From: Yoonia sp. F2084L
GTDB taxonomy: Bacteria > Pseudomonadota > Alphaproteobacteria > Rhodobacterales > Rhodobacteraceae
NCBI RefSeq assembly: GCF_023015625.1
Contig: NZ_JALKAH010000002.1
Coordinates: 558,001-622,000, forward strand
Direction: 5' to 3'
Length of the DNA: 64,000 nucleotides
Shown here: piece after piece, positions 35,762 through 57,987 of the stretch
How positions within the stretch are numbered: the stretch's first letter is position 1
Layout of the letters: every line of letters starts with the position of its first letter
Translations under genes and position numbers: made by a program
The notes under the pieces: model-generated
Seen by the model: the letters and a program-made list of their open reading frames with translations, nothing else
What the model was told of the DNA's origin: nothing
Database searches by the model: none

Positions 35762-36056
35762 TTTAGGCAGTGTCTGGCTTGTGGGACTTTGCTGCCGTTC
35801 GCTGCGGCTGTGCCGATGGCCGGGTTCAAGAAGAAGCACTTCTCACCTCCAGATCGATACTGGCTGCAGTCGGCCTTCCCCGTTCACAACGCCGGCAACG
35901 GCCCACCAGCGACCCCAACTCACGCCATCCTGAGCAACGGTGTCGTCCCAGAGGTGGCGGCGCAGGAGGATCAGCTATCCTAGAACATCCGGCTCCTAAA
36001 GGGCAGAGACGGCGCGGATGTGCGGACGACTTTCTGCGAAAGCGCCGGTACTGCAA
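35762..36056 (+). other. Intergenic junction at the left end of the inserted block
   Basis: No supportable gene in 295 bases. Short open frames on both strands have no sensible composition, start site or family. It joins the murA-DUF2948 block to the converging peptide transporter operon and may be a recombination scar. No tRNA, inverted-repeat or transposase fragment was recognised. Confidence 0.5.
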
Positions 36057-37058
36057 TCAGCTGCGGCGGCTCAGTTCCTGCCATTTGTGACATGCCACAT
36101 TGTGCTGGGTCCCGGCGGCCTCGAGGATCGGTTCTTCCACGCGGCAGCGATCAATAGCATGAGGGCAGCGGGTCTGGAACTTGCACCCGGGCGGCGGGTT
36201 GGTCGGCGAAGGGATTTCCCCTTCGAGTTTCTGCGCCTTGCCCCGGTCATCTGGGTCGAGCGAGGGGATCGCCGATAACAATGCCTGTGTGTAAGGGTGG
36301 CGCGGAGCAGAAAACAATGCCCGCGTCGGTGCCGTTTCGACCAGACGGCCTAGATACATGACTGCCACGTGGTCGCAGACATGGGCCACGACGCTTAGGT
36401 CGTGGCTGATGAACAAGAACGTCAGCCCCATTTCTTCCTGGATTGCTTTGAGCAGGTTCAGCACGTCGGCCTGAATGGACACGTCCAGTGCGGCAACGCT
36501 TTCGTCTGCGACGATAAACTTTGGCCCCGAGACCAAGGCGCGCGCGATAGAGATGCGCTGTCGCTGGCCACCGGAAAATGCGTGCGGGAACCGGCGCAGG
36601 TGTTCGACATTCAGCCGACACTTTGCCGCGATTTCGCGTACCCGTTCGTCGGTTTCCGCGCGTGATTTTGTAAGCCTCATGACCTCCAGCGGTTCTGCAA
36701 TAATGTCGCGCACCGTCATGCGGGGGCTGAGCGCGGCATAGGGATCCTGAAAAATCAGTTGCGCCCGTTTGCGGTAGTCCTTCAGATCTTTCTTGCCGAG
36801 GTTCTTGAGGGAGTATTCCACCTCACCATCATCAAACAGAACATTGCCCTTGCTGATAGGCGCGGCGCGCAGCATCGCGCGGCCAAGGGTGGTCTTGCCC
36901 GACCCGGATTCACCGACCAAACCAAAGAAACTGCCCGGTGCGATTTCGATTGTTACGTTTTCAACCGCGCGCACCAAGGGCGCAGGACCGATCAGACCGC
37001 CGCGCAATGCATAATGGACGGACAGACCCTGTGCGGTGATCAAAGGTTTCATTGTCAC
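36057..37058 (-). CDS. Oligopeptide ABC transporter ATPase (OppF type)
   Basis: A 333-residue ATPase with Walker A GESGSGKTT near 51, signature FSGGQRQR, Walker B FIVADESVAALD and the switch His in FISHDLSVV. The C-terminal oligopeptide motif NPPPGCKFQTRCPHAIDRC follows, its cysteines being those that bind an Fe-S cluster in some homologues. Walker B has ESVAALD where EPTSALD is usual. It overlaps the OppD-type gene by four bases and is last in the operon. Confidence 0.93.
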   Translation of the reverse strand: MTMKPLITAQGLSVHYALRGGLIGPAPLVRAVENVTIEIAPGSFFGLVGESGSGKTTLGRAMLRAAPISKGNVLFDDGEVEYSLKNLGKKDLKDYRKRAQLIFQDPYAALSPRMTVRDIIAEPLEVMRLTKSRAETDERVREIAAKCRLNVEHLRRFPHAFSGGQRQRISIARALVSGPKFIVADESVAALDVSIQADVLNLLKAIQEEMGLTFLFISHDLSVVAHVCDHVAVMYLGRLVETAPTRALFSAPRHPYTQALLSAIPSLDPDDRGKAQKLEGEIPSPTNPPPGCKFQTRCPHAIDRCRVEEPILEAAGTQHNVACHKWQELSRRS

Positions 37059-38056
37059 AGGGAACCGCTTTCTGAGTCATGAAGATGGCAGGCGGCTGTG
37101 TGATCTGCACTGACGTTTGAAAATGTCGGTACCTCGCGTGCGCATCGTCGGCCCAGAACCTCTTGGCAGCGGGTGTTGTAGACGCATCCTGACGGTCGTT
37201 CTAGCGGCGACGGGATATCGCCGGGGATCGGCGTCAGTGGGGCGTCGATATCATCCAAGGTCGGCAACGCGGCCAGCAATCCGCGTGTATATGGGTGTGC
37301 GGGCCTGCGAATGACATCCCGCACGCTACCATGTTCCACCAACCGGCCCAGATACATGACCGCGACCGTGTCGGCGGTTTGTGCAATGACCCCCAGATCG
37401 TGGGTGATGAATATGATCCCCATTCCGAACTCGGACACGATATCTTTCATCAGGTCAATGACTTGCGCCTGAATGGTCACATCCAGCGCTGTTGTCGGTT
37501 CGTCCGCGATGAGCAGTCTGGGTTTGGTCGACAGGGCCATGGCAATCATCGCACGCTGGCGCATCCCGCCCGATAGCTCGAACGCATATTGGCCGAACCT
37601 GGTGTTCGCGTCCGATATCCCGACCCGATCCAGCATTTCGATGGACAGTTCCTTGGCTTGCGTCGGTGAAAAGCTGGTGTGGATCAACAATTGCTCGACC
37701 ATCTGGTCGCCGATGGAAATGGCCGGGGCGAAGCTGGCCATCGGTTCCTGAAAGATCAGCGATATGGACCCGCCGCGCACGATCTTCATGTCGTGGTCGG
37801 TTTGCAGCGACATCACATCAACCGGGCCATCGTCCAGATGAAGGGTGATATTGGTAGCGGGGCCATAGATTGCATTGCGCGGGTTCAGCTTCATCAAGGA
37901 TTTGGCGGTGACTGACTTACCTGACCCGCTTTCGCCGACCAAGCCCATCACCTCTCCCGCCTCAAGGCTGAACGAGACGTCGTCCACAGCCGTGATCCGG
38001 CCCTCGTCGGTATCGAATTGCAGGGTCAGGTTTTCGACGTCAATCAGTCGGCTCAT
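37055..38056 (-). CDS. Oligopeptide ABC transporter ATPase (OppD type)
   Basis: A 333-residue ATPase with GESGSGKSV near 42 (Walker A ending SV), [20 protein letters not shown] and FITHDLGV. The C-terminal Cys motif is SPLERPSGCVYNTRCQEV. It belongs to the same class as its OppF-type partner and overlaps the upstream permease gene by four bases. Together they energise import by the permease pair. Confidence 0.93.
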   Translation of the reverse strand: MSRLIDVENLTLQFDTDEGRITAVDDVSFSLEAGEVMGLVGESGSGKSVTAKSLMKLNPRNAIYGPATNITLHLDDGPVDVMSLQTDHDMKIVRGGSISLIFQEPMASFAPAISIGDQMVEQLLIHTSFSPTQAKELSIEMLDRVGISDANTRFGQYAFELSGGMRQRAMIAMALSTKPRLLIADEPTTALDVTIQAQVIDLMKDIVSEFGMGIIFITHDLGVIAQTADTVAVMYLGRLVEHGSVRDVIRRPAHPYTRGLLAALPTLDDIDAPLTPIPGDIPSPLERPSGCVYNTRCQEVLGRRCAREVPTFSNVSADHTAACHLHDSESGSL

Positions 38057-39195
38057 TTCTTGGTGTCCCCATAGGGGTCAGCCGCATCGCGCAAGCCGTC
38101 GCCCACAAACACGAAGGCCATAACGAGGACGATGAAGAAGATCACCGGAATGAAATACCACTGATAATTCAGCAAAACATCTGCGCTGGTCACGTTTTGC
38201 AGCATCACCCCAAGCGAATTGACCGGGTCCTTGAGGCCCAGACCGATGAAGCTGAGCGCGGTTTCTGACAGCACCATGTAGGGAAAGGAAATGACCAGAT
38301 CGACGATGATGTAGCTGGTGAAACTGGGTAGCAGGTGCTTGCGGATCACATGTCCCGATGAAGCGCCGCACAGCTGGGCAGCAAGCACATATTCCTGATT
38401 ACGCTCGGTTAGCAGATGCGTGCGCACCCGCCTTGCAAGCGTTGGCCAACTGATGAAACCCAATATGACGGAGATGAAGAAGAACCTCTCTTCGGCGCTC
38501 CAAGTATCCGGGATGAAGGCGGCCAATGCCATGAAAAGCGGAATGGCCGGAATGGTGCGGACCGCATCCGTCACCATCTGGATGAAACTGTCGATCCAGC
38601 CACCATAATAGCCCGATATCCCGCCGATGATCAGGGCCAGCACGAAGGCCAGGAACACGCCTATCGTGCCCACCGCCATGGAGGTATTGATCGCATGGAA
38701 GGTGCGCGAAAAGATGTCTTTGCCGGTGGAATCTGTGCCGAAAAGGTGGATGAATCCTTCATCCACTCCAAAAAGGTGGGTTGAAAAGGTCATGAACATC
38801 AGCTGGTATTCGCTACCCTGAACAAAGAATTCGACATAGCGCCGCTTGTCCTTGTTTTCGGTGGTCACCCAGCGGAAATTTGTCTCGATCGAGCGTTCGC
38901 GTTCGTGTGTGTAAATGAACGGACGGAGAGAGCAGCCGTTCTCATCACAGAACTGTGGAATGGTCGGCGCGCCGTTCAGATAATCCTTGTCGCGACCGGC
39001 AATTGTCGGATCATAGGGCGTCAGGAATGGCGCGAACATGCCCGACAGGATCAGGATCACCAAAACCCAGGCCCCGACCATCGCTGCTTTTTGTTTCTTG
39101 AAACGGGTCCAGATCAGCTGGCTTTGCGAGGCGGTGAAATAGGCATCCTTGGCGCTTTGGTCGACGGATGCGTCATAAATATTGGTGTCACTCAT
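38053..39195 (-). CDS. Oligopeptide ABC transporter permease with long periplasmic insert (OppC type)
   Basis: A 380-residue permease, about 80-100 residues longer than common OppC. The extra length is a hydrophilic insert between the first membrane segment and the transport domain (about 60-150), with two cysteines (FCDENGCS) that could form a disulfide. The transport domain has LFGTDSTGKDIFSRTFHAINTS and the coupling loop NQEYVLAAQLCGASSGHVIRKHLLP. Large-insert OppC proteins of this kind usually pair with long binding proteins, as here. Overlaps the OppB and OppD type genes by four bases. Confidence 0.9.
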   Translation of the reverse strand: MSDTNIYDASVDQSAKDAYFTASQSQLIWTRFKKQKAAMVGAWVLVILILSGMFAPFLTPYDPTIAGRDKDYLNGAPTIPQFCDENGCSLRPFIYTHERERSIETNFRWVTTENKDKRRYVEFFVQGSEYQLMFMTFSTHLFGVDEGFIHLFGTDSTGKDIFSRTFHAINTSMAVGTIGVFLAFVLALIIGGISGYYGGWIDSFIQMVTDAVRTIPAIPLFMALAAFIPDTWSAEERFFFISVILGFISWPTLARRVRTHLLTERNQEYVLAAQLCGASSGHVIRKHLLPSFTSYIIVDLVISFPYMVLSETALSFIGLGLKDPVNSLGVMLQNVTSADVLLNYQWYFIPVIFFIVLVMAFVFVGDGLRDAADPYGDTKK

Positions 39196-40205
39196 GTCGT
39201 TTGTCCCAATATGCTATGACGTATGCGGGGATCGACCAGCGCCAGCACAATATCCGTGATGAAGTTGATAGCGACGATACTGCCCGTCAGGAAAAAGATG
39301 ATCGCGCCCGCAAGCTGCTGATCGTTTGACCGCGCCAATGCTTCGATCAGCAATGATCCCGCCTCGGTCAGCGTCAGGATCAGGGCCACGATTGGCAGCT
39401 CGTTGAAAATACGGTTCAGATCGAAACCAAGCGAATTTATGATCGGGCTCAGCGCGTGTCGTGCGGGATAGCGCAGCAGCAACCTGCGTCCCGACACGCC
39501 ACGCGCTGACGCCGCAGTTACGTATAGCTTGCTGATTTCATCCGACATCAGCGCTCGGACGGTTTGGATTGCAAACGCGGTGGCGGACCAGCCCAGAATG
39601 AACACTGGCAACCAGACGTGGCCAAGGAAGTCCTTGATCCGCGCCCAGTCCCATGGCGCGTCTCGAAATTCGGGCGAGAAGAGCCCGGTCAGACTGTTCC
39701 CGAACATGACGGTCGAAAACAGCATGATGATCAGCGCGAGCAGAAAGTTCGGCAGCGCAAGCCCCAGATAGCTGACCAGACGCAGACTGTTGTTCAGGAC
39801 AGGGTTACGCGATGTGGCAGCGATGATGCCGACCGGAACAGCGATGGCATAGGCCAGCAGCAACGAACCAAGGCAGATACCGACGCTGAGCCAGACCTTT
39901 TGGCCCAGCAATTGGTTGATATCCAGACGCAGGATGCAGCTTTCGCCAAACTCGCCCCGAAATGCATTCAGAATCCAGCTTGTCCAGCGTTCCAGATAAG
40001 GTCGGTCCAGACCCAGCCGGACCCGCTCTGCCTCAATATCAGCGATGGAAATCTGCGCCCCTTGCGAGTTCTTGAATGCAAGGTAACGCTCAGCACAGTC
40101 CCCCGGCACCAGTTCCATTAGCGAAAAGACGATGAAGGACACCAGACAGAGCGTGAAAACAGCAAGGCCGAAACGGATTGCCGCGAAGCGTAGAAACTGG
40201 ACCAT
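39192..40205 (-). CDS. Oligopeptide ABC transporter permease (OppB type)
   Basis: A 337-residue permease with the OppB-like N-terminus (LRFAAIRFGLAVFTLCLVSFIVFSL) and the coupling loop DEISKLYVTAASARGVSGRRLLLRYPARHAL. It also carries a periplasmic insert with a Cys pair (GDCAERY, GESCILRL). About 105 bases separate it from the binding protein, including a short GC hairpin (CGCCCCTTTGGGCG at 40233-40246) that may dampen read-through. Confidence 0.92.
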   Translation of the reverse strand: MVQFLRFAAIRFGLAVFTLCLVSFIVFSLMELVPGDCAERYLAFKNSQGAQISIADIEAERVRLGLDRPYLERWTSWILNAFRGEFGESCILRLDINQLLGQKVWLSVGICLGSLLLAYAIAVPVGIIAATSRNPVLNNSLRLVSYLGLALPNFLLALIIMLFSTVMFGNSLTGLFSPEFRDAPWDWARIKDFLGHVWLPVFILGWSATAFAIQTVRALMSDEISKLYVTAASARGVSGRRLLLRYPARHALSPIINSLGFDLNRIFNELPIVALILTLTEAGSLLIEALARSNDQQLAGAIIFFLTGSIVAINFITDIVLALVDPRIRHSILGQTT

Positions 40206-40310
40206 CTGTCTGACACGCCCCTGCGTATTTTACGCCCCTTTGGGCGCTGTTGTTTTGGGCCTCGGGCCACATCAGCAGCCCGAAACGGCTATTTGAAGTC
40301 CGACAATGGC

Positions 40311-42350
40311 TTATTCGTCAAGAAACCACTGTGAAGGACGATAAGGATACGTCCTATAAAAGGCATATGACGCGGTTCTGAACTGTGTGAAATTTTTCAG
40401 TGCGGCGTTGCGATAGATCGGCTGCTGCCCTTTGACAGTACCAATAAAGAGCAGATTGCCCGTCATGTTTTCAACTAGCCGTAGCGCCAGCGCGTCGGAT
40501 TCAGGCGTGCCAACTGGTGTGGCCTGAAACGCCCTGACATCTTCCATCATCTGTTTGACGTAGTCTGGCGGTTCCACACCCGCGGTCCCATCAGATTCCA
40601 CATATTCACCCCAAAGCATCGCGGTGCGCATGTTGAAATAATTGTCGAACGGCGGAATGAAGCTTTCGGCGTTGCCAAGCACAACGGACAACGGCACGCT
40701 TTTCTCGAACAGGGACACGTCCAACTGGTTCGACGATTGTGACGACCGATATTCGTCTGTCGTCACCTCTTTGACGGTGTTGTTGATGCCGACATCACGC
40801 CAGTTTTGCCCAACAAGTTCTACGATATTGATTGATATCCCTTGCGTGGCCACCTGCAAGTTCAGAGTCAATGGATCGCCATTCGGCAATTCGCGCATCC
40901 CGTCGCCGTCAAGGTCAACGACGCCGACTTCGTCCAGCAATGACATTGCCAGGTCAGCATCGAATTGCGCGTAGTGCTGCTCCCATTCTGGCGTGATAAA
41001 ATCAGGTGTTGGTGAGAAACCGATGTACTGCTGCGGCGTACCAAGACCAAACAAGGCAACTTCGTTGATTTCGTCGCGGTTGATTGCGACTGACATGGCT
41101 TGACGGAATCTCAGGTCACCAAAAACCTTGCGCTTCTCCAAATCCTCAGAGGTTACATTGAACGCGATGGTGGGCATCGTGATTTCAGGCTTCAGATCGA
41201 CGACAAAACCGGCAGTTTCCTGATTCTCCAGCAACAGCGGGACGTAATCCACCTGCAGGGCCTGCGCCTTGTAGTCCACTTCGCCGTTCATCAGCATCAG
41301 CAGACGTACTTCGCTTTCGCCAACAAAAATCTCGTCCATCTCGTTGATGTAGGGCAGCTGATTACCGGCCGTGTCGACCATGTAATAGTAAGGGTTGGCA
41401 ACATATTGGCGCCCCTCGGTGCTTTCGGCAATGACGATGTGGCTTTCCAAAGTGGGTGCTGCATTCAGTGGCAGGTTTGCGACCTTGTCAGGATGGGCCA
41501 ACATCGGTGTTGGTGTGTCCATCCAGTCCGAACTGCCGTAGTAGACCCTGACCAGATCGTAGCCATCTTCAAAGCCAAGCGATTGCGCAAGCTCATCGGC
41601 ATCGGGATTGATCGCGGGGTGATATTGCCCCAGAAAATGCTTCGGCTGAAAACCCTGTGCATAGTGGCTGGCAAAGTGAGACAGGAACCCCGGCTTTGGA
41701 GATGGCATGTTAAAACGCACGGTTTGCGCGTCAATCACATCGACCGTCATCGGTTCACCGGCTGCAAGGACATAGTCTTTCGGGCTTTCGATCACATTTG
41801 GATCAAGAGCTAGATTTTCGTACCAGAATTCAACGTCTTCAGCGCCGAACGGCTGACCATCGGACCATCTGTGGCCTTCGCGCAAGACAAAGGTCAACTG
41901 GGTGAAATCGTCATTCCAGGACCAGCTTTTGGCGACATTTGGCACGATTGTCGTCAGATCATCGGCATAGCGTACCAAATTGACATGTCGCACTGACATG
42001 AAGTCTGATGTCCCAGCCTCTGTCGCGTTGGACAGGGCATTGAAGACGCCGCCATATTTTCCAATTTCATCATATGGCGCGACGACAAGCGGCTCGGCAG
42101 GTAGGCGATCCGCCAAAGCAGGCAAATCCGGATTGCCCCGAATGCGCACGTTCAATGCTGCGATATCCGGGTTTTCGGACATTCCCAGATCGCAGTTTGC
42201 GAGGCTCTGGAATTCGCTCAGCTCATACTGTTGCGGGAACGCGCCAGCGGCGACGCCCATCGGATCCGACACGGTCACAGCAGGACAATTTGCCAGCGCC
42301 ATCCCTCCAATGGCCGTCAATGCAGCACTGGATAATAGTATCTTCCTCAT
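40311..42350 (-). CDS. Long oligopeptide-type periplasmic binding protein (679 residues)
   Basis: An SBP family 5 protein with signal peptide MRKILLSSAALTAIGGMALA. It is longer than DppA/OppA (about 530). The family block FVLREGHRWSDGQPFGAEDVEFWYENL lies about residue 150. The C-terminal region has NYFNMRTAMLWGEYVES and an aromatic YAFYRTYPYRPSQWFLDE end. It has an N-terminal extension with GKYGGVFN, as in the large binding proteins of alphaproteobacteria. The ligand is unknown; the adjacent oxidase and M81 peptidase hint at a peptide-like or N-substituted compound. It heads the minus-strand operon. Confidence 0.9.
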   Translation of the reverse strand: MRKILLSSAALTAIGGMALANCPAVTVSDPMGVAAGAFPQQYELSEFQSLANCDLGMSENPDIAALNVRIRGNPDLPALADRLPAEPLVVAPYDEIGKYGGVFNALSNATEAGTSDFMSVRHVNLVRYADDLTTIVPNVAKSWSWNDDFTQLTFVLREGHRWSDGQPFGAEDVEFWYENLALDPNVIESPKDYVLAAGEPMTVDVIDAQTVRFNMPSPKPGFLSHFASHYAQGFQPKHFLGQYHPAINPDADELAQSLGFEDGYDLVRVYYGSSDWMDTPTPMLAHPDKVANLPLNAAPTLESHIVIAESTEGRQYVANPYYYMVDTAGNQLPYINEMDEIFVGESEVRLLMLMNGEVDYKAQALQVDYVPLLLENQETAGFVVDLKPEITMPTIAFNVTSEDLEKRKVFGDLRFRQAMSVAINRDEINEVALFGLGTPQQYIGFSPTPDFITPEWEQHYAQFDADLAMSLLDEVGVVDLDGDGMRELPNGDPLTLNLQVATQGISINIVELVGQNWRDVGINNTVKEVTTDEYRSSQSSNQLDVSLFEKSVPLSVVLGNAESFIPPFDNYFNMRTAMLWGEYVESDGTAGVEPPDYVKQMMEDVRAFQATPVGTPESDALALRLVENMTGNLLFIGTVKGQQPIYRNAALKNFTQFRTASYAFYRTYPYRPSQWFLDE

Positions 42351-42501
42351 TCGTCGTCTCCTTGTTGGTCGTAAACAAAACAGTCTGAGATCTCGTGCGC
42401 AGTATCCGTTGTTCGAACAGATAGTGCGGCCCCGGTCGGACGAGCGCGCAATGGCTTTGACATCAGGAATCCCCAGAAACTGAAAAAAGTAGGTAATAAA
42501 A

Positions 42502-42537
42502 CTTGCAAGGAGTCAACATATTACGTTTTTCTTGCAA
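42502..42537 (+). promoter_or_regulatory. Paired CTTGCAA sites in the divergent promoter region
   Basis: CTTGCAAG (42502-42509, a perfect palindrome) and CTTGCAA (42531-42537) lie 29 bases apart in the roughly 260-base gap between the binding-protein gene (minus) and the FAD oxidase gene (plus). Both are close to where a promoter for the oxidase would be. They could be operators for the RpiR-type regulator of the cluster. This is pattern only. Confidence 0.3.
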
Positions 42538-42609
42538 TGCATCAATAATGGGCGCTTTGTAGCAAAACCAGTCTTTGTCGCATCCTGCGCCGTCCAAGAG
42601 GTCGAAATT

Positions 42610-43716
42610 TTGATCTATGATTTTCTTGTAATCGGCGGCGGAATATCGGGCGCATCAGCGGCTTATGAGCTTGCCGATGCAGGAACCGTCTTGCTGCTCG
42701 AAGCAGAGCAGACCATGGGTTACCACAGCACGGGCAGGTCCGCGGCACTGTTTACGCGCAACTACGGTGGACCCGTCGTGCGGCAGGTCAACAAGGCCAG
42801 CGAGTCATTTTTCAGGTCACCGCCTGTCGCCTTTTGCGACAGACCTTTGTTATCCCCCCGTGGTGCGCTGACGGTCGCAATGCCAGAGCATCAGGGTAAG
42901 TTGGATGCGCTGCTGTCCATGTCCGAGCCCGGTGAGGAGGTCTGTTTAATTGATCCAACGGACGCCGTCGCAATGGTACCGTTTTTGCGACCAGAGCGTA
43001 TCAGCCGTGCTGTGTACGAGGCTAACGCCACAGACATTGATGTCGCCAATCTGCATCTTGGATATCTGAAAGGTGCGAAGGCGCAGGGCGCTAAAACGCT
43101 GACGTCGCAACCGGTAAGCGCCCTCTCGTATCAATCAGGGGCTTGGCGCATCCAGACGAAGGATGATCAATTTGCTGCCGCAACAATCATCAATGCAGGC
43201 GGCGCCTGGGCCGACAAAATCGGTACGATGGCTGGCGCGCGCAGCATCGGTCTGGTGCCCAAGCGGCGCACTGCCATCATCATAAACGGGCCAAACGGGC
43301 TTGACTATGGTGCGATGCCGTTGGTCGATTTTGCGGGCTTTGGCGCATACATCAAACCTGACGCGGGCAAGCTGATGGCGTCACCGGGCGATGCGACAGC
43401 AACCGACCCGCACGACGCCTGGGCCGATGACATGGATATTGCGGTCCTCGCCGACAGGATCGAGCAAGAAACAACAATCGAAGTCACCAGGATCGCACAC
43501 AGCTGGGCCGGCTTGCGCAGCTTTGTGGCGGATGATGTCCCGGTTGTCGGGTTTGACCCGGACGTGTCAGGCTTCTTCTGGCTGGCGGGTCAAGGCGGAT
43601 ATGGCATCATGATGGCGCCGGCTTTGGCCGTCATAACAGCTGACCTTTGTCTCAACCGATCGGTGGCTGACAAAACATCCCTCGTGGAAGGCCTTTCGCC
43701 GCATCGGCTGCGCTAA
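42610..43716 (+). CDS. FAD-dependent oxidoreductase, D-amino-acid/glycine oxidase (DAO) family
   Basis: A 368-residue flavoprotein with the dinucleotide motif VIGGGISGASAAYELA and EAEQTMGYHSTGRS at the N-terminus, INAGGAWADKIG at mid-length, and the C-terminal FAD/substrate segment FFWLAGQGGYGIMMAPALA. It would oxidatively deaminate or demethylate an amino acid or N-alkyl amino acid. The TTG at 42610 is preferred since AAGAGG is eight bases upstream and the Rossmann strand then starts at residue 2; an earlier start would add 26 unrelated residues. Divergent from the peptide transporter, which probably supplies its substrate. Confidence 0.87.
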   Translation: MIYDFLVIGGGISGASAAYELADAGTVLLLEAEQTMGYHSTGRSAALFTRNYGGPVVRQVNKASESFFRSPPVAFCDRPLLSPRGALTVAMPEHQGKLDALLSMSEPGEEVCLIDPTDAVAMVPFLRPERISRAVYEANATDIDVANLHLGYLKGAKAQGAKTLTSQPVSALSYQSGAWRIQTKDDQFAAATIINAGGAWADKIGTMAGARSIGLVPKRRTAIIINGPNGLDYGAMPLVDFAGFGAYIKPDAGKLMASPGDATATDPHDAWADDMDIAVLADRIEQETTIEVTRIAHSWAGLRSFVADDVPVVGFDPDVSGFFWLAGQGGYGIMMAPALAVITADLCLNRSVADKTSLVEGLSPHRLR

Positions 43717-43809
43717 CGCCCAGTCCATTGAGATATCACAAGGAACCCAGAAACAATTGACTTTCGGCAAGTTACACCACCAAATTTTCCCGATGATAGT
43801 GGAGGCAAA

Positions 43810-44700
43810 ATGACTAAATCCCTGCGCGACCGCCTTGGTCAAGCCGCAGCATCTGCCTCAAAGGCGGACCGCGCGATAGCAACCTATATGCTCTCCGAAC
43901 TTGGTAACCTTCCTTTCGAGACTGCTGCAAGTCTGGCCGCAAAGGTCGAGGTAAGCGAGCCGACCGTTGGTCGGTTTTGCCGTTCTATTGGCTATGAAGG
44001 TTTCAAGGACCTCAAGAACAATTTGCGCAACGACATGGGCGACCAGCCGTGGTTGATCGGCGACCGGCTGCGGGATCTGCAGGAACGCACCAAGGCTGGC
44101 GAGGATCAACTGACTCGCGGTCTGGAACTGGAGATGGCAGCACTCGTCGCCGTCTACGAAACCGCGCATACGCCGGAATGGGACAGGGTGGTCAAGCGTC
44201 TGGCGCAGGCCAGATCGGTCTTTGTCGTCGGTTTCCAGACAGAGCGTGGCATCGCGCAGATTTTCGTTAATCAACTTCAATATCTACGCGATGGGGTGCA
44301 TTTGGTTGATCTGGCCAGCGGCAATTTTGCCGATGTGCTGGCTATGGATGATACCGACACGGCCTTGGTCATGTTCGAAGCGCGCCGTTATTCCCGTCAG
44401 GCTCGGTTATTGGCACAAGAAGCGCACGCGGCTGGCATTCCCGTGACGCTGATCACGGACCCATATTGCGATTGGGGTCATAACGTGGCGGATGAAAGAT
44501 TTGTCGTGCCCACATCCTTCAACCTATTCTGGGACTCCACTGCCCAGATGGCCAGTCTTGCCAATCTTTTGGTCAACGGCGTGTTCATGGAACTGGGTCC
44601 CGAGGTCGAAGCCCGCATGAACAAGATCGCTCGGCTTTATGGCAAATTCACGGGTCACGTTGGTGCAGCAGGGTCCGACAAAACTGCGGCCAAAACCTGA
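43810..44700 (+). CDS. MurR/RpiR-family transcriptional regulator
   Basis: A 296-residue regulator. The N-terminal helix-turn-helix domain of the RpiR type (LAAKVEVSEPTVGRFCRSIGYEGFKDLK, about 40-67) is followed by a SIS ligand-binding domain (about 125-260, starting VFVVGFQTERGIAQIF). SIS domains normally sense phosphosugars, but members in peptide/amino-acid clusters sense other ligands. It lies between the FAD oxidase and the M81 peptidase on the same strand and most likely controls this cluster and the divergent transporter. Confidence 0.88.
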   Translation: MTKSLRDRLGQAAASASKADRAIATYMLSELGNLPFETAASLAAKVEVSEPTVGRFCRSIGYEGFKDLKNNLRNDMGDQPWLIGDRLRDLQERTKAGEDQLTRGLELEMAALVAVYETAHTPEWDRVVKRLAQARSVFVVGFQTERGIAQIFVNQLQYLRDGVHLVDLASGNFADVLAMDDTDTALVMFEARRYSRQARLLAQEAHAAGIPVTLITDPYCDWGHNVADERFVVPTSFNLFWDSTAQMASLANLLVNGVFMELGPEVEARMNKIARLYGKFTGHVGAAGSDKTAAKT

Positions 44701-44756
44701 TTGTGCTTATGCCAGTCCAACCACAGAACACGTCGCTGCCATGAAGGATACGATCA

Positions 44757-46241
44757 GTGGGCTTCAAAGTATTAAGTGCTGAAATGTCGCACGAGACAAA
44801 CACGTTCAATATTCATCCGACAACCCTGCAATGCTTCTATGACCGTTTCCTGTTGGATGGTGATCAGGCCGTCGCGGCGCGAGGTGAGCAGAATACCGAG
44901 CTTGCGGGACTACTGGAGACGGGTCGCGACTATGACTGGGACATAAGCCATGTCATCAGCGCTGCCGCCGGACCGGGTGGCGTTGTCACTCGCGAAGCCT
45001 TCGAGATACTGACAAAACCGCTGGTCGATGCGGCACATCGCGATTGGGACGGCATATTTCTGATCCTTCATGGTGCAATGGTCACCGACTTTTGTGACGA
45101 CGGCGAAGGAGAAATCCTGCGCCGTCTACGTGCCATCGTTGGCCCGGACCTGCCAATCGCCGTTACGCTTGACCCACATGCCAACGTCACCAAAGCGATG
45201 TGTGATCTGGCCCAAATCCTGGTTTCTTTCACCACCTACCCGCATGTTGATATCCGCGCGACCGGGCGCCGGGTGGCGGAGCTTTTGCAGCGCACAATGT
45301 CAGGTGATATTCAGCCCAGAACGCTGCGTGCGCACCGTCCCATGCTGGAGGAAGCCAACGGCGGTCGCACAGATATCGGGCCAATGATCGAACGCCATGC
45401 GCTTGCGCGTGCCTTTGAGACGCGCAAAGGGGTCTATGCCATCAGCATCAACGGCGCATTCCCTTGTGCGGATATCGCCGAGGTTGGCCCAACGGTTCTG
45501 GTTACATGCGACGACGACACCGCAGCCCATCGTCTTATTGCCGAGACACTGGCGGACGACATCTGGACCCGTCGTCAAGAAGCTCTGAATACCTACCTGA
45601 CCAGTAACCAGGCTGCGGTTGCCGCCCGGCAATGGAACGGCGACGCAGGTCCGCTGGTCATTGCTGACTATGCCGACAATCCCGGTTCGGGGGCATACGG
45701 GGATGCAACAGCGCTTCTTGCTGCCTTGATTGAGAGCGACATCAAGAACGCGTGTTTCGGGCCATTGGTCGACCCGGTCGCTGCCACGTTCCTTGGCGCG
45801 AAAACCAAAGGAAGCCCGGTCACATTGAACATTGGCGGCACAACGGCGCCAGAACTGGGCGGCAGCCCACTCAATGTGACGGGTATTGTCAAATGGGCAG
45901 GGGACGGCCGTGTCGTCGGGAATGGACCGATATTGGGTGGGTTAGAGCGCAGTTTTGGCACGACGGCAGTGCTTGAAGTTGGCGGCATCGACATCCTGAT
46001 CGTCAGCATTGCGCACCAGATGTTGGACCTCAGGCAGTTCGAAGCTTTCGGGATTGATCCGGCGAAAAAATCTGTCGTCGCATTGAAATCGATGCAGCAC
46101 TTCCGGGCGGCTTTCGCACCCATCGCGGGGCGTATCATCGTCTGCGATAGCGGTGCCTTGTGTACGCTCAACTACTCGTCACTGGGCTACAGGAACGTGC
46201 CGCATCCGACGTTTCCTTTGGACGAAAGATCTGCTGACTGA
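44757..46241 (+). CDS. M81-family metallopeptidase (MlrC-like)
   Basis: A 494-residue protein of the MlrC/M81 family. Conserved N-terminal blocks are SAEMSHETNTF (about 7-17), FLILHGAMVTD (about 101) and AVTLDPHANVT (about 138), whose His/Asp are the expected zinc ligands, followed by TTYPHVDIRATG. The C-terminal MlrC domain follows from about 300 (VIADYADNPGSGAYGDAT). The founding member cuts linear microcystin peptides; most homologues have unknown substrates. Starts at GTG 44757 with AAGGA eight bases upstream. Last gene of the oxidase-regulator-peptidase run. Confidence 0.88.
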   Translation: MGFKVLSAEMSHETNTFNIHPTTLQCFYDRFLLDGDQAVAARGEQNTELAGLLETGRDYDWDISHVISAAAGPGGVVTREAFEILTKPLVDAAHRDWDGIFLILHGAMVTDFCDDGEGEILRRLRAIVGPDLPIAVTLDPHANVTKAMCDLAQILVSFTTYPHVDIRATGRRVAELLQRTMSGDIQPRTLRAHRPMLEEANGGRTDIGPMIERHALARAFETRKGVYAISINGAFPCADIAEVGPTVLVTCDDDTAAHRLIAETLADDIWTRRQEALNTYLTSNQAAVAARQWNGDAGPLVIADYADNPGSGAYGDATALLAALIESDIKNACFGPLVDPVAATFLGAKTKGSPVTLNIGGTTAPELGGSPLNVTGIVKWAGDGRVVGNGPILGGLERSFGTTAVLEVGGIDILIVSIAHQMLDLRQFEAFGIDPAKKSVVALKSMQHFRAAFAPIAGRIIVCDSGALCTLNYSSLGYRNVPHPTFPLDERSAD

Positions 46242-46526
46242 CGTCTTCGGATATGTGCTCAGACAAAACTGATTCTAAGCGCAGACATTGCTACTGGGCC
46301 GAAAGATGGACCTGCCCCTCGCATTCAATGAATTGCACTCAACTGCGCGGTTACGTTCTCAGGTAAAAATTTCGAGCAAAATTCAAAAGCGCCATTTGTC
46401 AGCCGCGCAGCATCCGTCAAATGGGCTCAAAGCCGAAATTCTCCTACTGCCTCATCCGCACCCCATACCCACCATTGAACCACCCAGCCCACCCCGCTAT
46501 GTCGTGGCTTCGCAAGGAGTGATGTG
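46242..46526 (+). other. Intergenic junction at the right end of the inserted block
   Basis: About 285 bases between the M81 peptidase and hisD. No gene, tRNA, hairpin terminator or transposon end was recognised. The last 15 bases hold the AAGGAG ribosome site of hisD. Confidence 0.5.
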
Positions 46527-47837: not shown

Positions 47838-48313
47838 GCAGGATCAGCCATATCGAGATTGACGACCGCAATCTGCCGCCGCCCACCCCTGAGATTGATC
47901 AGGAACGCAAAGTGGCGATGTTTGATCTGTTGGAAGACAACAGCTTTGCCATGCCCGCACGCGATGGGCGTGACGTGCCCGCAGGCCCATATAAGCTGAA
48001 CCTGTCAATCAAAGAGCGCCGTTTGGTGTTTGATCTCAAGCAGGAAAACGACAATCCAGCGGGTGAGTTTCACCTGTCGCTAGGTCCCTTTCGGCAGGTC
48101 GTGAAGGACTATTTCCAGATTTGCGAAAGCTATTTTGACGCCGTGAAATCCTTGCCCCCCAGCCAAATCGAAACGATCGACATGGCCCGCCGTGGTATCC
48201 ACAACGAAGGGGCGCGGATTTTGCAGGAAAGGCTGGAAGGCAAAGCCGACGTCGATATTGATACAGCCCGCCGCCTGTTCACCCTCATCTGCGTCCTGCA
48301 CTTCGGAGGCTGA
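47834..48313 (+). CDS. UPF0262 family protein
   Basis: A 159-residue protein of the alphaproteobacterial UPF0262 family, with RISHIEIDDRNLP, GPYKLNLSIKERRLVFDL, GPFRQVVKDYFQICESYFDAV and the C-terminal DTARRLFTLICVLHFGG. The function is unknown. Overlaps hisD by four bases and is followed after four bases by the phosphatase gene, so it belongs to the conserved hisD operon. Confidence 0.93.
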   Translation: MSRISHIEIDDRNLPPPTPEIDQERKVAMFDLLEDNSFAMPARDGRDVPAGPYKLNLSIKERRLVFDLKQENDNPAGEFHLSLGPFRQVVKDYFQICESYFDAVKSLPPSQIETIDMARRGIHNEGARILQERLEGKADVDIDTARRLFTLICVLHFGG

Positions 48314-48317
48314 AAAC

Positions 48318-48800
48318 ATGGCGGAGGGGGACAAATACAAGGACCTTCCGCAGTCAGTCCTGTTTTGCTGTGACCATAACTCTGTTCGTTCGCCGATGGC
48401 CGAAGGGATCATGAAACAGCTGTATGGCACCGAGTGCTACATTCAATCTGTCGGGGTGAAGAACGACCTTGAGATTGACGGATTTTCCATCGCAGTCTGT
48501 GCCGAGATCGGGGTCGAACTGTCGCGGCATCGGTCGCGATCCTTCGATGAGATGGAAGACTGGGGCGATGATCTGTCATCTTTCGATCTGGTGTTGGCTC
48601 TTTCGCCCGCCAGCCAGCGCCGCGCACTGGATTTGACGCAGTTTTACCATCTGGATGTGGAATACTGGCCCATCCTGGACCCCACCGGGTTAGGCGACAG
48701 CCGTGAGGCGCGGTTGGCGCTTTATCGGCAAGCCCGTGATCAGATCAAGGACCGTTTGGTGGCGCGCTGGGGGCCAGGGATTGAAGCGGAGCCCGCGTAA
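48318..48800 (+). CDS. Low-molecular-weight protein tyrosine phosphatase family protein
   Basis: A 160-residue LMW-PTP-like protein. The phosphate loop reads CDHNSVRSPMAEG, fitting C-x5-R-S with nucleophile Cys18. The general acid Asp is in PILDPTG. The loop differs from the common CxGNxCRSP, so activity on phosphotyrosine versus arsenate or another substrate is open. It is a regular member of the hisD-infA block in Rhodobacterales. The ATG at 48318 gives the standard length. Confidence 0.85.
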   Translation: MAEGDKYKDLPQSVLFCCDHNSVRSPMAEGIMKQLYGTECYIQSVGVKNDLEIDGFSIAVCAEIGVELSRHRSRSFDEMEDWGDDLSSFDLVLALSPASQRRALDLTQFYHLDVEYWPILDPTGLGDSREARLALYRQARDQIKDRLVARWGPGIEAEPA

Positions 48801-52855: not shown

Positions 52856-54814
52856 TTAAACGTCCAACTCCTCCACAAACCGCGCGTTTTCCTGAATATA
52901 CTGGAACCGCAGTTCGGGCTTTTTGCCCATCAGTCGTTCCACCAAATCCGCTGTGTCGCCCGGCACTTCGTCGTGTACCGTGACCCGGATCAGTTTGCGG
53001 GTGGCGGGGTCCATTGTGGTTTCTTTGAGGTCCTTGGCGTCCATTTCGCCTAAGCCTTTGAAGCGTTGTAGGTCGATTTTACCTTTACCGCCCAAGCCCT
53101 TGGCCATCACCGCGTCTTTTTCCGCATCATCCGCCACATAGACCCGTTTCGCCCCTTGCGTCAGCCGATACAGCGGCGGGCAGGCCAGGTAGAGGTGTCC
53201 TTGGTCGATCAGTGGCCGCATTTGCGTGAAGAAGAATGTCATCAAAAGCGACGCGATATGCGCGCCGTCAACGTCCGCATCCGTCATGATGATGATCTTG
53301 TCATAGCGCAGGTCTTCGACGTTGAACCGCGTGCCCATGCCGACACCGAGCGCCTCGCAGAGGTCATTGATTTCAGCGTTGGTTGTCAGCTTGGATGACG
53401 CAGCGCCAAGCACATTGAGGATTTTACCTTTGAGTGGCAGCAGCGCTTGGGTCTTGCGATCGCGTGCGCCTTTGCCGGAGCCGCCCGCGCTGTCGCCCTC
53501 GACGATGAAAAGCTCGGTTCCCACGCGGTCTTTCGACGTGCAATCGGTCAGTTTTCCGGGCAGGCGCAGTTTCTTGGTGGCGGACTTGCGCGCGGTTTCC
53601 TTTTCCTGACGGCGGCGCAGGCGTTCTTCGGCGCGCAGCACAAGGAAATCAAGGATCGCACCGGCTGATTTCGTGTCAGCCGCCAGCCAGTTGTCAAAGT
53701 GGTCGCGCACAGCGCCTTCGACCATCTTTTGTACGTTCTCGTTTGAAAGCCGGTCTTTGGTCTGGCCCACATATTGCGGATCCCGAATGAAGACCGACAC
53801 AAGCGCGCAACCGCCAGTGATCAGATCGTCGCGGGTGATCTGTTTTGCCTTTTTGTTAGAGACACGTTCGCCGTAGTCGCGGATGCCCTTCAGTATCGCC
53901 GCCCAGAACCCGGACTCATGCGTGCCGCCTTCGGGTGTGGGCACCGTGTTGCAATAGGACTGGATGAAACCATCCCGCGAGGGTGTCCAATTGATTGTCC
54001 AGTCGACCTTGCCGGGTTCGCCGAATTTTTCCTGAAATGCGACTGTGCCCGCGAAGGGTTTGTCGGCATAGGTCGTCGCACCCTCAAGCCGCTCTTTGAG
54101 ATAGTCAGAGAGGCCGCCGGGAAAATGGAACTTTGCTTCCATCGGGGTATTGCCGTCCGAGATGCCGGTTTTCCAACGGATTTCAACGCCGGAAAAGAGA
54201 TAGGCTTTGGATCGCGCCATCGCAAAAAGGCGTGCAGGCTTCAGTTTGAGATAGCCGAAAATTTCAGGATCTGGGTGGAAGGTCACTTTGGTGCCGCGGC
54301 GATTAGGTGCGCTGCCGATTTTTTCCAGCTTGGTTTGGGGAACACCGCGCGCAAAATCCATCGCAACCAGCTCTTTGTTGCGCGCGACTTCGACACGCAG
54401 ATGATCAGACAGCGCGTTCACCACGGAAGAGCCGACGCCGTTCAAACCGCCTGATGTTTCATAGTTCTTGCCCGAAAATTTGCCGCCCGCGTTCAGCGTG
54501 CAAAAGATAATCTCAAGCGCGGACTTTGAGGGGTCTTTTGGGTGAGGGTCCGTCGGGATACCTCGCCCGTTGTCAGCAACCGATACGTTGCCGTTTTCGT
54601 GCAGTTCGACCTCAATCCACGTTGCATGTCCGGCGACGGCTTCGTCCATTGAGTTGTCGATGATTTCGGCAACCATATGGTGCAGCGCGCGATCGTCCGT
54701 GCCGCCGATATACATGCCGGGGCGCAGGCGGACGTGCTCCATATCCTCCAGCACTTCGATGCTGTCGGCGTTATAATCGTTGGGTCCGCTATTGGACAAA
54801 AGATCACTGGGCAT
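52856..54814 (-). CDS. parE: DNA topoisomerase IV subunit B ParE
   Basis: A 652-residue type IIA topoisomerase ATPase subunit. The ATP-binding region has EIIDNSMDEAVAGHA, DNGRGIPTDPHP and GGLNGVGSSVVNALS. The TOPRIM domain has ELFIVEGDSAGGSGKGARDR and DADVDGAHIASLL, and the C-terminus RFQYIQENARFVEELDV is typical. YIGGTDDRALHHMVAEI and the moderate length favour ParE over GyrB. It partners ParC (not in the window) to unlink daughter chromosomes. Confidence 0.95.
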   Translation of the reverse strand: MPSDLLSNSGPNDYNADSIEVLEDMEHVRLRPGMYIGGTDDRALHHMVAEIIDNSMDEAVAGHATWIEVELHENGNVSVADNGRGIPTDPHPKDPSKSALEIIFCTLNAGGKFSGKNYETSGGLNGVGSSVVNALSDHLRVEVARNKELVAMDFARGVPQTKLEKIGSAPNRRGTKVTFHPDPEIFGYLKLKPARLFAMARSKAYLFSGVEIRWKTGISDGNTPMEAKFHFPGGLSDYLKERLEGATTYADKPFAGTVAFQEKFGEPGKVDWTINWTPSRDGFIQSYCNTVPTPEGGTHESGFWAAILKGIRDYGERVSNKKAKQITRDDLITGGCALVSVFIRDPQYVGQTKDRLSNENVQKMVEGAVRDHFDNWLAADTKSAGAILDFLVLRAEERLRRRQEKETARKSATKKLRLPGKLTDCTSKDRVGTELFIVEGDSAGGSGKGARDRKTQALLPLKGKILNVLGAASSKLTTNAEINDLCEALGVGMGTRFNVEDLRYDKIIIMTDADVDGAHIASLLMTFFFTQMRPLIDQGHLYLACPPLYRLTQGAKRVYVADDAEKDAVMAKGLGGKGKIDLQRFKGLGEMDAKDLKETTMDPATRKLIRVTVHDEVPGDTADLVERLMGKKPELRFQYIQENARFVEELDV

Positions 54815-55015
54815 GGGGCTCGAACCTCATTTATTGATTGCTGCTCAGTATGGCAGAGCAGGCAGGGCGGGGGAAGGCTGCATTCTTGTGCAATGGGTTG
54901 CAAAGATGGGCCTGCGGGCAAAAAAAACTGGGGTTGGCGCGGGGCTGTCACTCGCGTGGTCTTGGCGCATGACCGTCTGTGTGCCAAGACAGGCCGTCAA
55001 AAGGATCGCTGCACA

Positions 55016-55689
55016 ATGAATGACCCGAAAGAAACGCCCGTACCGCGCCTGCGCCAACTGCCTGACTGGCGGTATCTGCTGCAAGAGTACTATGAGCTTT
55101 ACCGCTATCTGCCGTCGGGTGGCAGCGACCGTATTCGTACCCATCAGCGTGCTGTCCGCGAGGCGATCAACCGCGTACTGCGGGCCAATCCAGTGATCCG
55201 CACCCAAACACCCGCGCAAAAGCCGGTCACGGCGCATCTCAAACGTGCTTTGGACGAAGGACGCGGGGATCGGATGGGATCAACCATTCGCGCGTTGGAG
55301 TCAGTGCAGGCCGATCTGTCGTGGCAATATGGTTATGAAAAAGTGCCCAAGGGCCTCGTCGGCAGCTATGCCTATGCCGAGGTTGCAGGCCCAAATGGTC
55401 CGGTCGTGTCAGAAGAGATCATTCTGGGCATAGTCCTGTTTGCGCCGGGTTGTACCTATCCCGCCCATGCCCACCGTGGGATCACGGAAAGCTATGTCTG
55501 TCAGGGGCCGTGTCTGAAAACCATCAGGGCGTTTATGTTCCCGGATCCCTGATCTTTAACCCGCCAGAGCACTTGCATCGGATCACAGTGGGAAAAAGCG
55601 AACCTGCCTTGCTTGTTTATGCCTGGATGGGTGCGCATGAGGATTTGCTGGATCAGAAGATGGTGTTCACGCGTAAACGCAAGGATTAA
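55016..55689 (+). pseudogene. dddL: DMSP lyase DddL, frameshifted
   Basis: From the ATG at 55016 the first 162 codons match what I remember of DddL (LPDWRYLLQEYYELYRYLPSG, then SWQYGYEKVPKGL), including the cupin metal motif HAHRGITESY with His151, His153 and Glu158. After Cys162 (55499-55501) this frame runs into a stop at 55550-55552. Sliding back one base restores SGAVSENHQGVYVPGSLI, then FNPPEHLHRIT and a stop at 55687-55689. A lost 4-base unit at TCTG (55497-55500) explains the break: the repaired protein is 225 residues, normal for DddL. DddL splits dimethylsulfoniopropionate into DMS and acrylate. As written, the second metal motif is lost, so the gene is either dead or the sequence has an error. 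Confidence 0.85.
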
Positions 55690-55698
55690 CCGCCTCTT

Positions 55699-56982
55699 TT
55701 ATTCGCCGCCCGCTTTTGTTTCAAACCGTAGGCCCGCCGCCGTCCGGTTTGGAAAGCCCGTCCAATAGCTGTGCTCGGGTGTTTGCACACCATCATCATC
55801 AACCGACCAGAGCCCATCGGTCGCCACAGGTGTCAGATCAAAGTAGCGCGCCTTTTCCTCATCCCCCTTAAGATGCATATCAAGGTATCCGGTCACAAAA
55901 TGCTGGCTGATATTGTTCATCCGCACATTGTCCCAGACCGCATCGGCGTAGTGGTCAAACGGCGCATACCCCAGTTCTTCGGACACCGCATAGCTTTCGG
56001 CGGGGGCGGGCATCGGGGCGCCGGCGTTGTGGTTGGCTTGCGCGAACGTCAGCAGGTGCCGTGTGGTGTTGATCGTTTCATCAAAGATCGCGCGCATGGC
56101 TGAATACTGCGATACATCATCAATCTCACCAGCGATCAGCATCAGCGGCTTGTCGATCCCGGCCCAGCTTTCCGCGTCCCAGAACCCGGTGTTGTTGCCC
56201 CACGGCCCAAAAGCCACGATGGCTTTCACCCGGTCGTCCTTTAAAGAGTTGTGGCTTTCGGTGCCCATCAGGTTACGCTCCAGCAGCCCTTGCGGCGCGC
56301 CCCATTCATATGTGGTGCTGAGCAGGGTCACACCTGCACCTGCGTAGATCAATGCGCCGTAGCCGCCCATCGAATAGCCCACAATGGCGACGTTATCGTC
56401 TTGCACAATGCGGCCAAGATCACCCTCTAGCGCGGTGACGCTGTCGATCACAAAGCGCTGATCCCATGGGCGGTTCACCAGCGTCGACCCAAAGGCCGTC
56501 TGATCGTCATAAGTGCTGTCGGGGTGGTCGATTGAGGCCACAACATAGCCCTTTGAAGCAAGATTTTCGGCCAATGGCGACATCAGGTAGCGGTTCCCCG
56601 GATAGCCGTGAGAGATGATCACCAGCGGAAATGTCTCGGACGTATCAGGTGCCGCATCGCGGGCCGCTTGGCCAACAAGCGTGGCCTCGGTCACGCCGTC
56701 GCGGATCAGGGCGGTGTAGGTTCCGCCGGGCTCTGTGTCGTCCGTGGCGGGGTACCAAATCTCAACCGTGATTTCGCGGTCATAGCGCGGCGGCTCGCCG
56801 GTTTCGTCTGTGTTCACGATGTCGATTTGATCGCGGTTCGTGAAGGTCATCGTGGTCACGCCGATCTTGTGATCGCCAAAAGCGGCCAGCGCTGGTGCAT
56901 CTGGGCGCACGACATCGATGCGGTTCTCGGCCTGGCTCGCCGTTGCGGCTATGATACCAATGGCTGCCGTGATCCTTCGCAT
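55699..56982 (-). CDS. Secreted alpha/beta hydrolase (PAF-acetylhydrolase/dienelactone hydrolase-like)
   Basis: A 427-residue hydrolase with signal peptide MRRITAAIGIIAATASQA. The oxyanion region is VIISHGYPGNRYLM, and the nucleophile elbow is VGYSMGGYGAL. A likely catalytic His is in the FAQANHNAG segment and an acid in LIAGEIDD. The layout recalls secreted lipase/esterases of the platelet-activating-factor acetylhydrolase type. The substrate is unknown. It converges with dddL, leaving nine bases between stops, and has no obvious operon partner. Confidence 0.8.
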   Translation of the reverse strand: MRRITAAIGIIAATASQAENRIDVVRPDAPALAAFGDHKIGVTTMTFTNRDQIDIVNTDETGEPPRYDREITVEIWYPATDDTEPGGTYTALIRDGVTEATLVGQAARDAAPDTSETFPLVIISHGYPGNRYLMSPLAENLASKGYVVASIDHPDSTYDDQTAFGSTLVNRPWDQRFVIDSVTALEGDLGRIVQDDNVAIVGYSMGGYGALIYAGAGVTLLSTTYEWGAPQGLLERNLMGTESHNSLKDDRVKAIVAFGPWGNNTGFWDAESWAGIDKPLMLIAGEIDDVSQYSAMRAIFDETINTTRHLLTFAQANHNAGAPMPAPAESYAVSEELGYAPFDHYADAVWDNVRMNNISQHFVTGYLDMHLKGDEEKARYFDLTPVATDGLWSVDDDGVQTPEHSYWTGFPNRTAAGLRFETKAGGE

Positions 56983-57102
56983 AAGATGTTCCTTCTATGG
57001 GATGTTATGGGTTGCGCTTAACGTATAGGGCAACTTCAGGAATGAATAGTCATTGCGGTTACCTCTTGGCGGATTAATCTGGCGGGCAAAAGGAGAAACA
57101 GC

Positions 57103-57987
57103 ATGCGCGTATTTTTCACTGGTGGCAGCGGCAAGGCTGGCAAACATGCGATCACTTATTTGCAAGGGCAGGGCCACCATGTTGTCAATGCGGACCGCGT
57201 CCCCTCTGGTCTGGATGTGTCCGAATTGCTGATTGATCTGTGCGATGCCGGACAGGTCATTGGTGCGATGTCACAGTTTACAGACTTTGATGAGTTGGAC
57301 GCAGGCACAGGCGTGCCGACCTATGACGCTGTTGTGCATTTCGCTGCTGTCCCTCGCGTGATGATCGGCACCGATGGTGAGTGTTTCCGCCAGAATACCC
57401 TGAGCACCTACAACGTGATTGAGGCGGCGGTAAAGCTGGGTATCCCCAAGGTCATTTTTGCCAGCTCCGAGACGACATATGCCGTCTGTTTTGCCGATGG
57501 CGAGGTCAAACCGGACTATGTGCCGATTGATGAAGATCACCCGACGGTCCCCCATGACAGCTATGCGATGTCGAAGGTCTGCAATGAGGCGACGGCGCGA
57601 TCTTTTCAGGCACGCAGCGGTGCCGATATCTATGGGTTGCGCATTAATAACGTGATCGAACCGCATGAATATGCTGAAAACTTCCCAGTCTTTATGAAGG
57701 ACCCGGCCACCCGTCGCCGTAATATCTTTGCCTATATTGATGCGCGTGATCTGGGGCATATGGTCGATTGCTGTCTGCGGACCGATGGGCTGGGCTACGA
57801 GGTCTTTAACGTGGCCAACGATGATATGTCGGTCGGGATCACGTCTGATGAGGTGATTGCGCGGTTTTATGATGGCGTGCCAGTGAAACGGCAGATGCGC
57901 CCCGATGAGACGTTTTATGCCAATGACAAAGCCAGGCGCATGGTTGGCTTTGCGCCTAAGCATTCTTGGCGCGAGGTGCTGGGCTGA
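57103..57987 (+). CDS. NAD-dependent epimerase/dehydratase (extended SDR)
   Basis: A 294-residue extended short-chain dehydrogenase. The nucleotide loop is FTGGSGKAGKHA, the catalytic Tyr and Lys are in DSYAMSKVCNE, VVHFAAVPRV is the usual strand-4 motif, and FASSETTYA carries the catalytic Ser/Thr. It is expected to act on a nucleotide sugar or similar hydroxylated substrate. Its stop shares one base with the start of the oxygenase (TGATG). It probably opens a short operon. Confidence 0.88.
   Translation: MRVFFTGGSGKAGKHAITYLQGQGHHVVNADRVPSGLDVSELLIDLCDAGQVIGAMSQFTDFDELDAGTGVPTYDAVVHFAAVPRVMIGTDGECFRQNTLSTYNVIEAAVKLGIPKVIFASSETTYAVCFADGEVKPDYVPIDEDHPTVPHDSYAMSKVCNEATARSFQARSGADIYGLRINNVIEPHEYAENFPVFMKDPATRRRNIFAYIDARDLGHMVDCCLRTDGLGYEVFNVANDDMSVGITSDEVIARFYDGVPVKRQMRPDETFYANDKARRMVGFAPKHSWREVLG

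Follow-up and report, generated by a model that had tools for sequence, protein, structure and literature searches.

A probably genuine and very recent loss of one four-base unit in the DMSP lyase gene dddL beside parE

The question raised by this locus is whether the DMSP lyase gene dddL, which is read in two different frames in the 64 kb window (the whole stretch of DNA analysed, on contig C5 of genome G000), was broken by a genuine mutation, and what such a break would mean for the strain. DMSP lyases liberate the gas DMS from DMSP, a compound made by algae. The window's genome belongs to the Yoonia group of the Rhodobacteraceae, comprises 3.88 Mb in 12 contigs and is 99.99% complete, and the gene at 55016-55689 is the sole cupin DMSP lyase (PF16867) gene therein. 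Known DddL proteins, from Sulfitobacter EE-36, R. sphaeroides (RSP_1433), Loktanella (now Yoonia) vestfoldensis SKA53 and Stappia (now Roseibium) aggregata IAM 12614, are cupin DMSP lyases of Rhodobacteraceae and their relatives. All dddL-bearing strains tested until then are reported to have been DMS-positive, including Loktanella vestfoldensis SKA53 and Stappia aggregata IAM 12614, the named dddL-bearing strains being DMS producers (PMC3017554). The features of the gene discussed below are the following:

55016-55552, + strand: 5' part of dddL in frame 1, encoding 178 residues, with the frame lost after codon 162 by alignment with intact DddL
55498-55689, + strand: 3' part of dddL, in the other frame by translation, containing the motif-2 histidine codon (55576-55578)
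55495-55502, + strand: TGTC x2 tandem tract at which four bases are missing, with TGTC x3 in four intact relatives
55504-55507, + strand: GGGG run just 3' of the break, a possible (speculative) ribosomal slip site, by sequence

In the sequence as given, the frame break is a genuine feature, far beyond what chance would produce. Frame 1 runs from the ATG at 55016 to the TGA at 55550-55552 and encodes a 178-residue product ending in ...ESYVCQGPCLKTIRAFMFPDP, short of the approximately 224 residues of a full-length DddL frame, and the second frame, read from 55498, proceeds from LSGAVSENHQGVY to ...KRKD and a stop at 55687-55689. When aligned to intact relatives, both pieces make up one complete DddL end to end, and since they overlap at bases 55498-55501, the gene is four bases shorter than in the relatives, which represents a net loss. 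The 5' part matched the PF16867 profile with 107.6 bits (cut-off 27) over profile positions 2-121 of 162, the intact relative L048 scoring 143.1 bits, and the 3' part was 88% identical to the tail of the G051 DddL; NCBIfam gave no match for either piece, nor for L048. Moreover, the gene resembles known DddL in being orthologous by sequence (73% over residues 12-162 to the SKA53 gene, L054), in lying beside parE and in keeping the motif-1 ligands. Its nearest named relatives by dddL are a Yoonia MAG, an uncultured Rhodobacteraceae assembly and two Roseobacter. The initial annotation had identified the gene as dddL, which the profile match and the alignment bear out, and had noticed a four-base shortfall at a repeat, in agreement with the frames and the relatives; its repeat stood, but the proposed TCTG unit at 55497 is better replaced by TGTC x2 at 55495-55502.

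We then compared the site among relatives. A total of 125 relative loci (L002-L126) were examined, 123 of which gave a gene spanning the site, corresponding to 111 distinct genes, while L016 and L017, the weakest matches, did not pass. At the break site, none of the 111 distinct relatives is out of frame, the window gene alone being broken, and no disabling change is common to it and any of these orthologues, as in a recent pseudogene. The motif pattern fits 110 of them, the remaining one (L046) having a variant motif and still being in frame, and a full-length tail was found in 109, with L038 ending at a contig end and L015 carrying a later, different nonsense codon. Homologues ending naturally at the end of frame 1, the finding that the initial annotation had named as speaking against a break, were looked for and not encountered (0/111); a naturally short protein was thereby rejected. 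As to L015 (G004), it is a distant DddL-like gene whose nonsense codon, near the C-terminal end, is a Trp codon in its sister L014 (G005). Both belong to a DddL-like group, L009-L015 (G049, G052, G025, G016, G039, G005 and G004, respectively), of 48-50% identity, which is not beside parE in those genomes and lies far from DddL in the tree.

Concerning the effect on the protein, DddL is reported to feature two histidines and one glutamate in cupin motif 1 (PMC5395565), and all three ligands (H151, H153 and E158) are kept in frame 1. Unlike in known DddL, however, the reading frame is lost at the end of motif 1, and the motif-2 histidine is outside the product, its codon (55576-55578) lying in the other frame, past the shift. 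The break had been described as falling between the two cupin motifs: it does precede the motif-2 histidine, but it is not cleanly between the motifs, being located at the end of motif 1, after the three metal ligands. In the predicted model of the intact relative L048 (mean pLDDT 86.4), the position of the break is within strand 156-164, and the strands at 167-169, 180-183, 189-193 and 199-207, which are the last four of eight, would be lost. The best PDB matches of this model were DddQ structures, whose TM-scores by query length were modest (0.55-0.57). We strongly infer that the DddL product of the window is inactive. The 178-residue product could in principle be a functional short form with another role, as three metal ligands and an intact N-terminal part are kept, but its last 16 residues are out of frame, none of the 111 relatives ends there, and the motif-2 histidine together with four of the eight strands predicted for L048 is gone, so that we attach next to no probability to it.

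To estimate the age of the break, conserved columns were defined by a conservation of 95% or more across 99 other DddL rows, with the 12 rows of the distant DddL-like group excluded. None of the 77 such columns is changed in the window gene (0/47 before the break and 0/30 after it), a result that is in itself not unusual, as among 100 rows 47 had no departure, 31 had one, 13 had two and 9 had three or more. The number of neutral changes allowed since the break is below 0.017 per site (95% bound, with 174 nonsynonymous sites in those codons). Taking half of the synonymous distance to the G051 dddL (approximately 1.2) as the window's share, the break would fall roughly in the last 3% or so of the branch, an estimate that is rough because synonymous sites are near saturation; the dN/dS of the window gene to its four nearest relatives is 0.07-0.08. 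The unchanged conserved positions indicate that the break is very recent, and old decay was rejected on the same ground, which upholds the earlier reading of a very recent mutation in a gene without other damage.

A sequence error, nevertheless, would give the same undamaged picture as a very recent mutation. The strain's dddL would then be intact, one repeat unit having been dropped in sequencing or assembly; in addition to the lack of other damage in the gene (0/77 conserved columns), such breaks do exist in other assemblies, since gyrB and dddP of G011 (L281, C8 98155-99482) are each in two pieces, reflecting either a weak assembly or real decay there. Against this possibility, when 33 ORF places were compared with relatives (29.2 kb in sum, some of them antisense or overlapping frames, all lying from 28.9 kb on in the window), a real frame change was observed in dddL only. 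In the stretches taken, the sister genome G033 matches the window at 7 ORF places only, all from approximately 52.8 kb onward, and other relatives had therefore been added to this comparison. A second frame change flagged therein, at 48127-48330, lies ahead of the gene's likely start and is read as an artefact of stop-to-stop reading. Moreover, gyrB, parE, dddP and dmdA of the window's genome are each in a single frame, and a 12-base tract is short. The single frames found elsewhere favour a real mutation, without proving one, and an error is accordingly regarded as unlikely. We consider it probable that dddL has genuinely and very recently lost one of the four-base units of a short tandem tract, with slipped-strand mispairing as the most likely route.

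The tract itself was examined next. TGTC x3 is present at the site in four of the 111 relatives (L003, L018, L056 and L120), all intact and none slipped, and these differ from the window by exactly one unit; TCTG x2 occurs at the site in 9 of 110 relatives, and some tandem four-base unit in 16 of 110. The tract arises from the codons of a conserved V-C-L-S stretch. Tandem Repeats Finder (score 30) reported nothing at the break site, and, set against a first-order Markov control, the 64 kb window contains 193 two-unit tetranucleotide tracts (control mean 199) and not a single three-unit one (control mean 1.0, range 0-4). As these counts match the control, the break site is no special repeat. 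These results bear on the proposal, also made in the initial annotation, of a reversible on/off switch in which the tract gains and loses units in the population, toggling DddL. A tandem four-base tract inside a coding sequence would suit such a switch, and a precedent exists in icaC of S. aureus, where the frame is reported to shift whenever a single four-base unit is gained or lost, in a reversible, RecA-independent manner, with variant strains listed as having 4-6 units (PMC4117637). The likeness to icaC lies in the frame being changed by one four-base tandem unit in the coding sequence. However, in that source icaC variation concerns 9 clinical isolates of 103 genomes, with reversion shown, whereas the change in dddL is found in one genome, at a tract that lacks the conservation among orthologues looked for in a phase-variable gene, that is explained by codons, that retains only two units and that is of a kind as frequent in the window as in the Markov control. 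The switch is thus a weak proposal, and we hold it to be very improbable.

Leaky readthrough was also considered. The GGGG run at 55504-55507 lies just past the break, and a -1 ribosomal slip on it, the direction required, would yield a little near-full-length DddL, one residue shorter. Still, no classical slippery heptamer is present, the run is a putative slip site only, and the missing residue would be in a core strand according to the L048 model, which makes this route extremely improbable. Returning to the loss by slippage, dddL would have been intact until very recently, when slipped-strand mispairing in replication, as the simplest mechanism, may have dropped one TGTC unit; the resulting frame shift would have led to loss of DddL activity, selection on dddL may have been weak because DddP remains, and the break of a gene that comes and goes beside parE would be ordinary gene loss. 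Most likely, dddL is here a pseudogene of a known gene, ordinary in kind and probably new. In the partly accessible literature on dddL with pseudogene or frameshift, with subscription journals mostly outside its scope, no earlier account of a dddL carrying a frameshift was found.

As for the capacity of the strain to process DMSP, the window's genome encodes both an intact DddP (890 bits, cut-off 600) and an intact DmdA (678 bits, cut-off 410), and dmdA adjoins a gene of the acrylyl-CoA reductase family (444 bits, cut-off 297; 419 bits with the AcuI model, below its cut-off of 440). The possibility of a second dddL was rejected, as a genome search revealed no second dddL or other PF16867 gene. 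Judging from gene content, DMS release through DddP likely remains, and with dddP and dmdA intact the break probably has little influence on how much DMS the strain releases. The idea that the break decides whether the strain makes DMS from DMSP is therefore weakened by the intact dddP. DddP is above the cut-off in 29 of 56 genus genomes and, in the group of six to which the window belongs (see below), in the window's genome, G033, G041 and G043, but not in G006 or G049. G033 (L318, C5, approximately 714 kb) also has DddQ, with 208 bits to R. pomeroyi DddQ 5cu1, which the window's genome lacks. Homology surveys would count the window dddL as a DMSP lyase, even though no active enzyme is expected from it.

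The surroundings of dddL were analysed across the genus, and the features involved are the following:

52856-54814, - strand: gene for DNA topoisomerase IV subunit B by similarity, which we take to be parE, conserved neighbour of dddL
54815-55015, no strand: parE-dddL spacer, whose parE end resembles G020, G032, G011, G003 and Roseobacter, not sister G033
55699-56982, - strand: alpha/beta hydrolase (Pfam PETase and Abhydrolase_1), variable gene of the interval
57103-57987, + strand: NAD-dependent epimerase/dehydratase family gene (PF01370), far flank of the variable interval

A parE gene adjoins dddL within the examined stretch in 28 of 80 contig loci, from several genera. Within the genus set, which as grouped includes Yoonia vestfoldensis SKA53 and DSM 16212, 55 genomes have a readable parE locus, with at least 2.4 kb upstream seen in each (G040 is without a parE match). 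Eight of them carry dddL at this locus (window, G020, G051, G017, G055, G022, G054 and G053), one (G021) has a stump, and 46 have no dddL there, including the five nearest relatives of the window's genome. In dddL-less genomes, remnants of the gene were sought within 3 kb upstream of parE; G021 alone stood out (E 1e-11), the other matches having E of at least 0.16, near the best reversed control (0.57). The G021 stump (L191), which lies 0.1-0.24 kb upstream of parE, has a readable C-terminal end but has lost its 5' part and an internal piece; thus, dddL is inactivated at the same locus as in the window, but the 5' deletion and internal gap reflect much older decay. The window gene would show the loss of dddL very shortly after it happened, at a locus where this gene has a patchy distribution within one genus. 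The promoter scan gave no site, Rfam gave no match, and the terminator scan gave one site, the same as in shuffles (mean 1.0).

In a gyrB and parE tree built by a quick method from 53 of the 56 genomes, the window has G033 as its sister (97) within a group of six (99), whose other five members have no dddL at the parE locus; one of these, G049, has a distant DddL-like gene (50%) elsewhere in its genome. Counting the broken gene and the stump, dddL presence requires at least six changes on this tree. The dddL tree, in turn, groups the window with G020, G051 and two Roseobacter (95), apart from the Y. vestfoldensis group. The window hydrolase clusters with G042, G032, G011 and G003 (99, set of five) and its epimerase with G042 (96), whereas the G033 hydrolase clusters with G046 (98) and its epimerase with G046 and G023 (96). 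As the hydrolase, epimerase and dddL trees and the likeness of the spacer conflict with parE, the segment appears to have been exchanged between lineages. On account of the disagreements of the hydrolase and epimerase trees with parE, and of the dddL tree with the gyrB and parE tree, we did not accept that sister G033 had simply deleted its dddL. The segment does not seem to have had a simple history, and the window lineage may have kept or re-acquired dddL before the break.

The interval between parE and the epimerase gene (54815-57103 in the window; parE loci L176-L229) is very variable in the genus, with gene trees disagreeing with parE, and where an epimerase gene lies upstream of parE the interval may contain dddL or the hydrolase, both of them, other content, or no gene at all. 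It might be conjectured that this interval serves roseobacters as a place of exchange and disposal, in which a DMSP lyase is gained, broken and lost time and again, and that in this species intact dddL alleles coexist with broken ones, the two interconverting by single-unit slippage, such that DMS output via DddL would be a mutation-set, population-level dial; we find this picture very improbable. Elsewhere in the window, positions 36006-46439 are 96% identical over 10.4 kb to G041 (C8, 3157-13593), while the parE genes of both genomes are only 81.5% identical in DNA. The block contains genes for a solute-binding protein (SBP_bac_5), an FAD oxidoreductase, an RpiR-type regulator and an M81/MlrC gene, and presumably, by reading alone, transporter ATPases and permeases, and the part shared with G041 likely represents a recent transfer.
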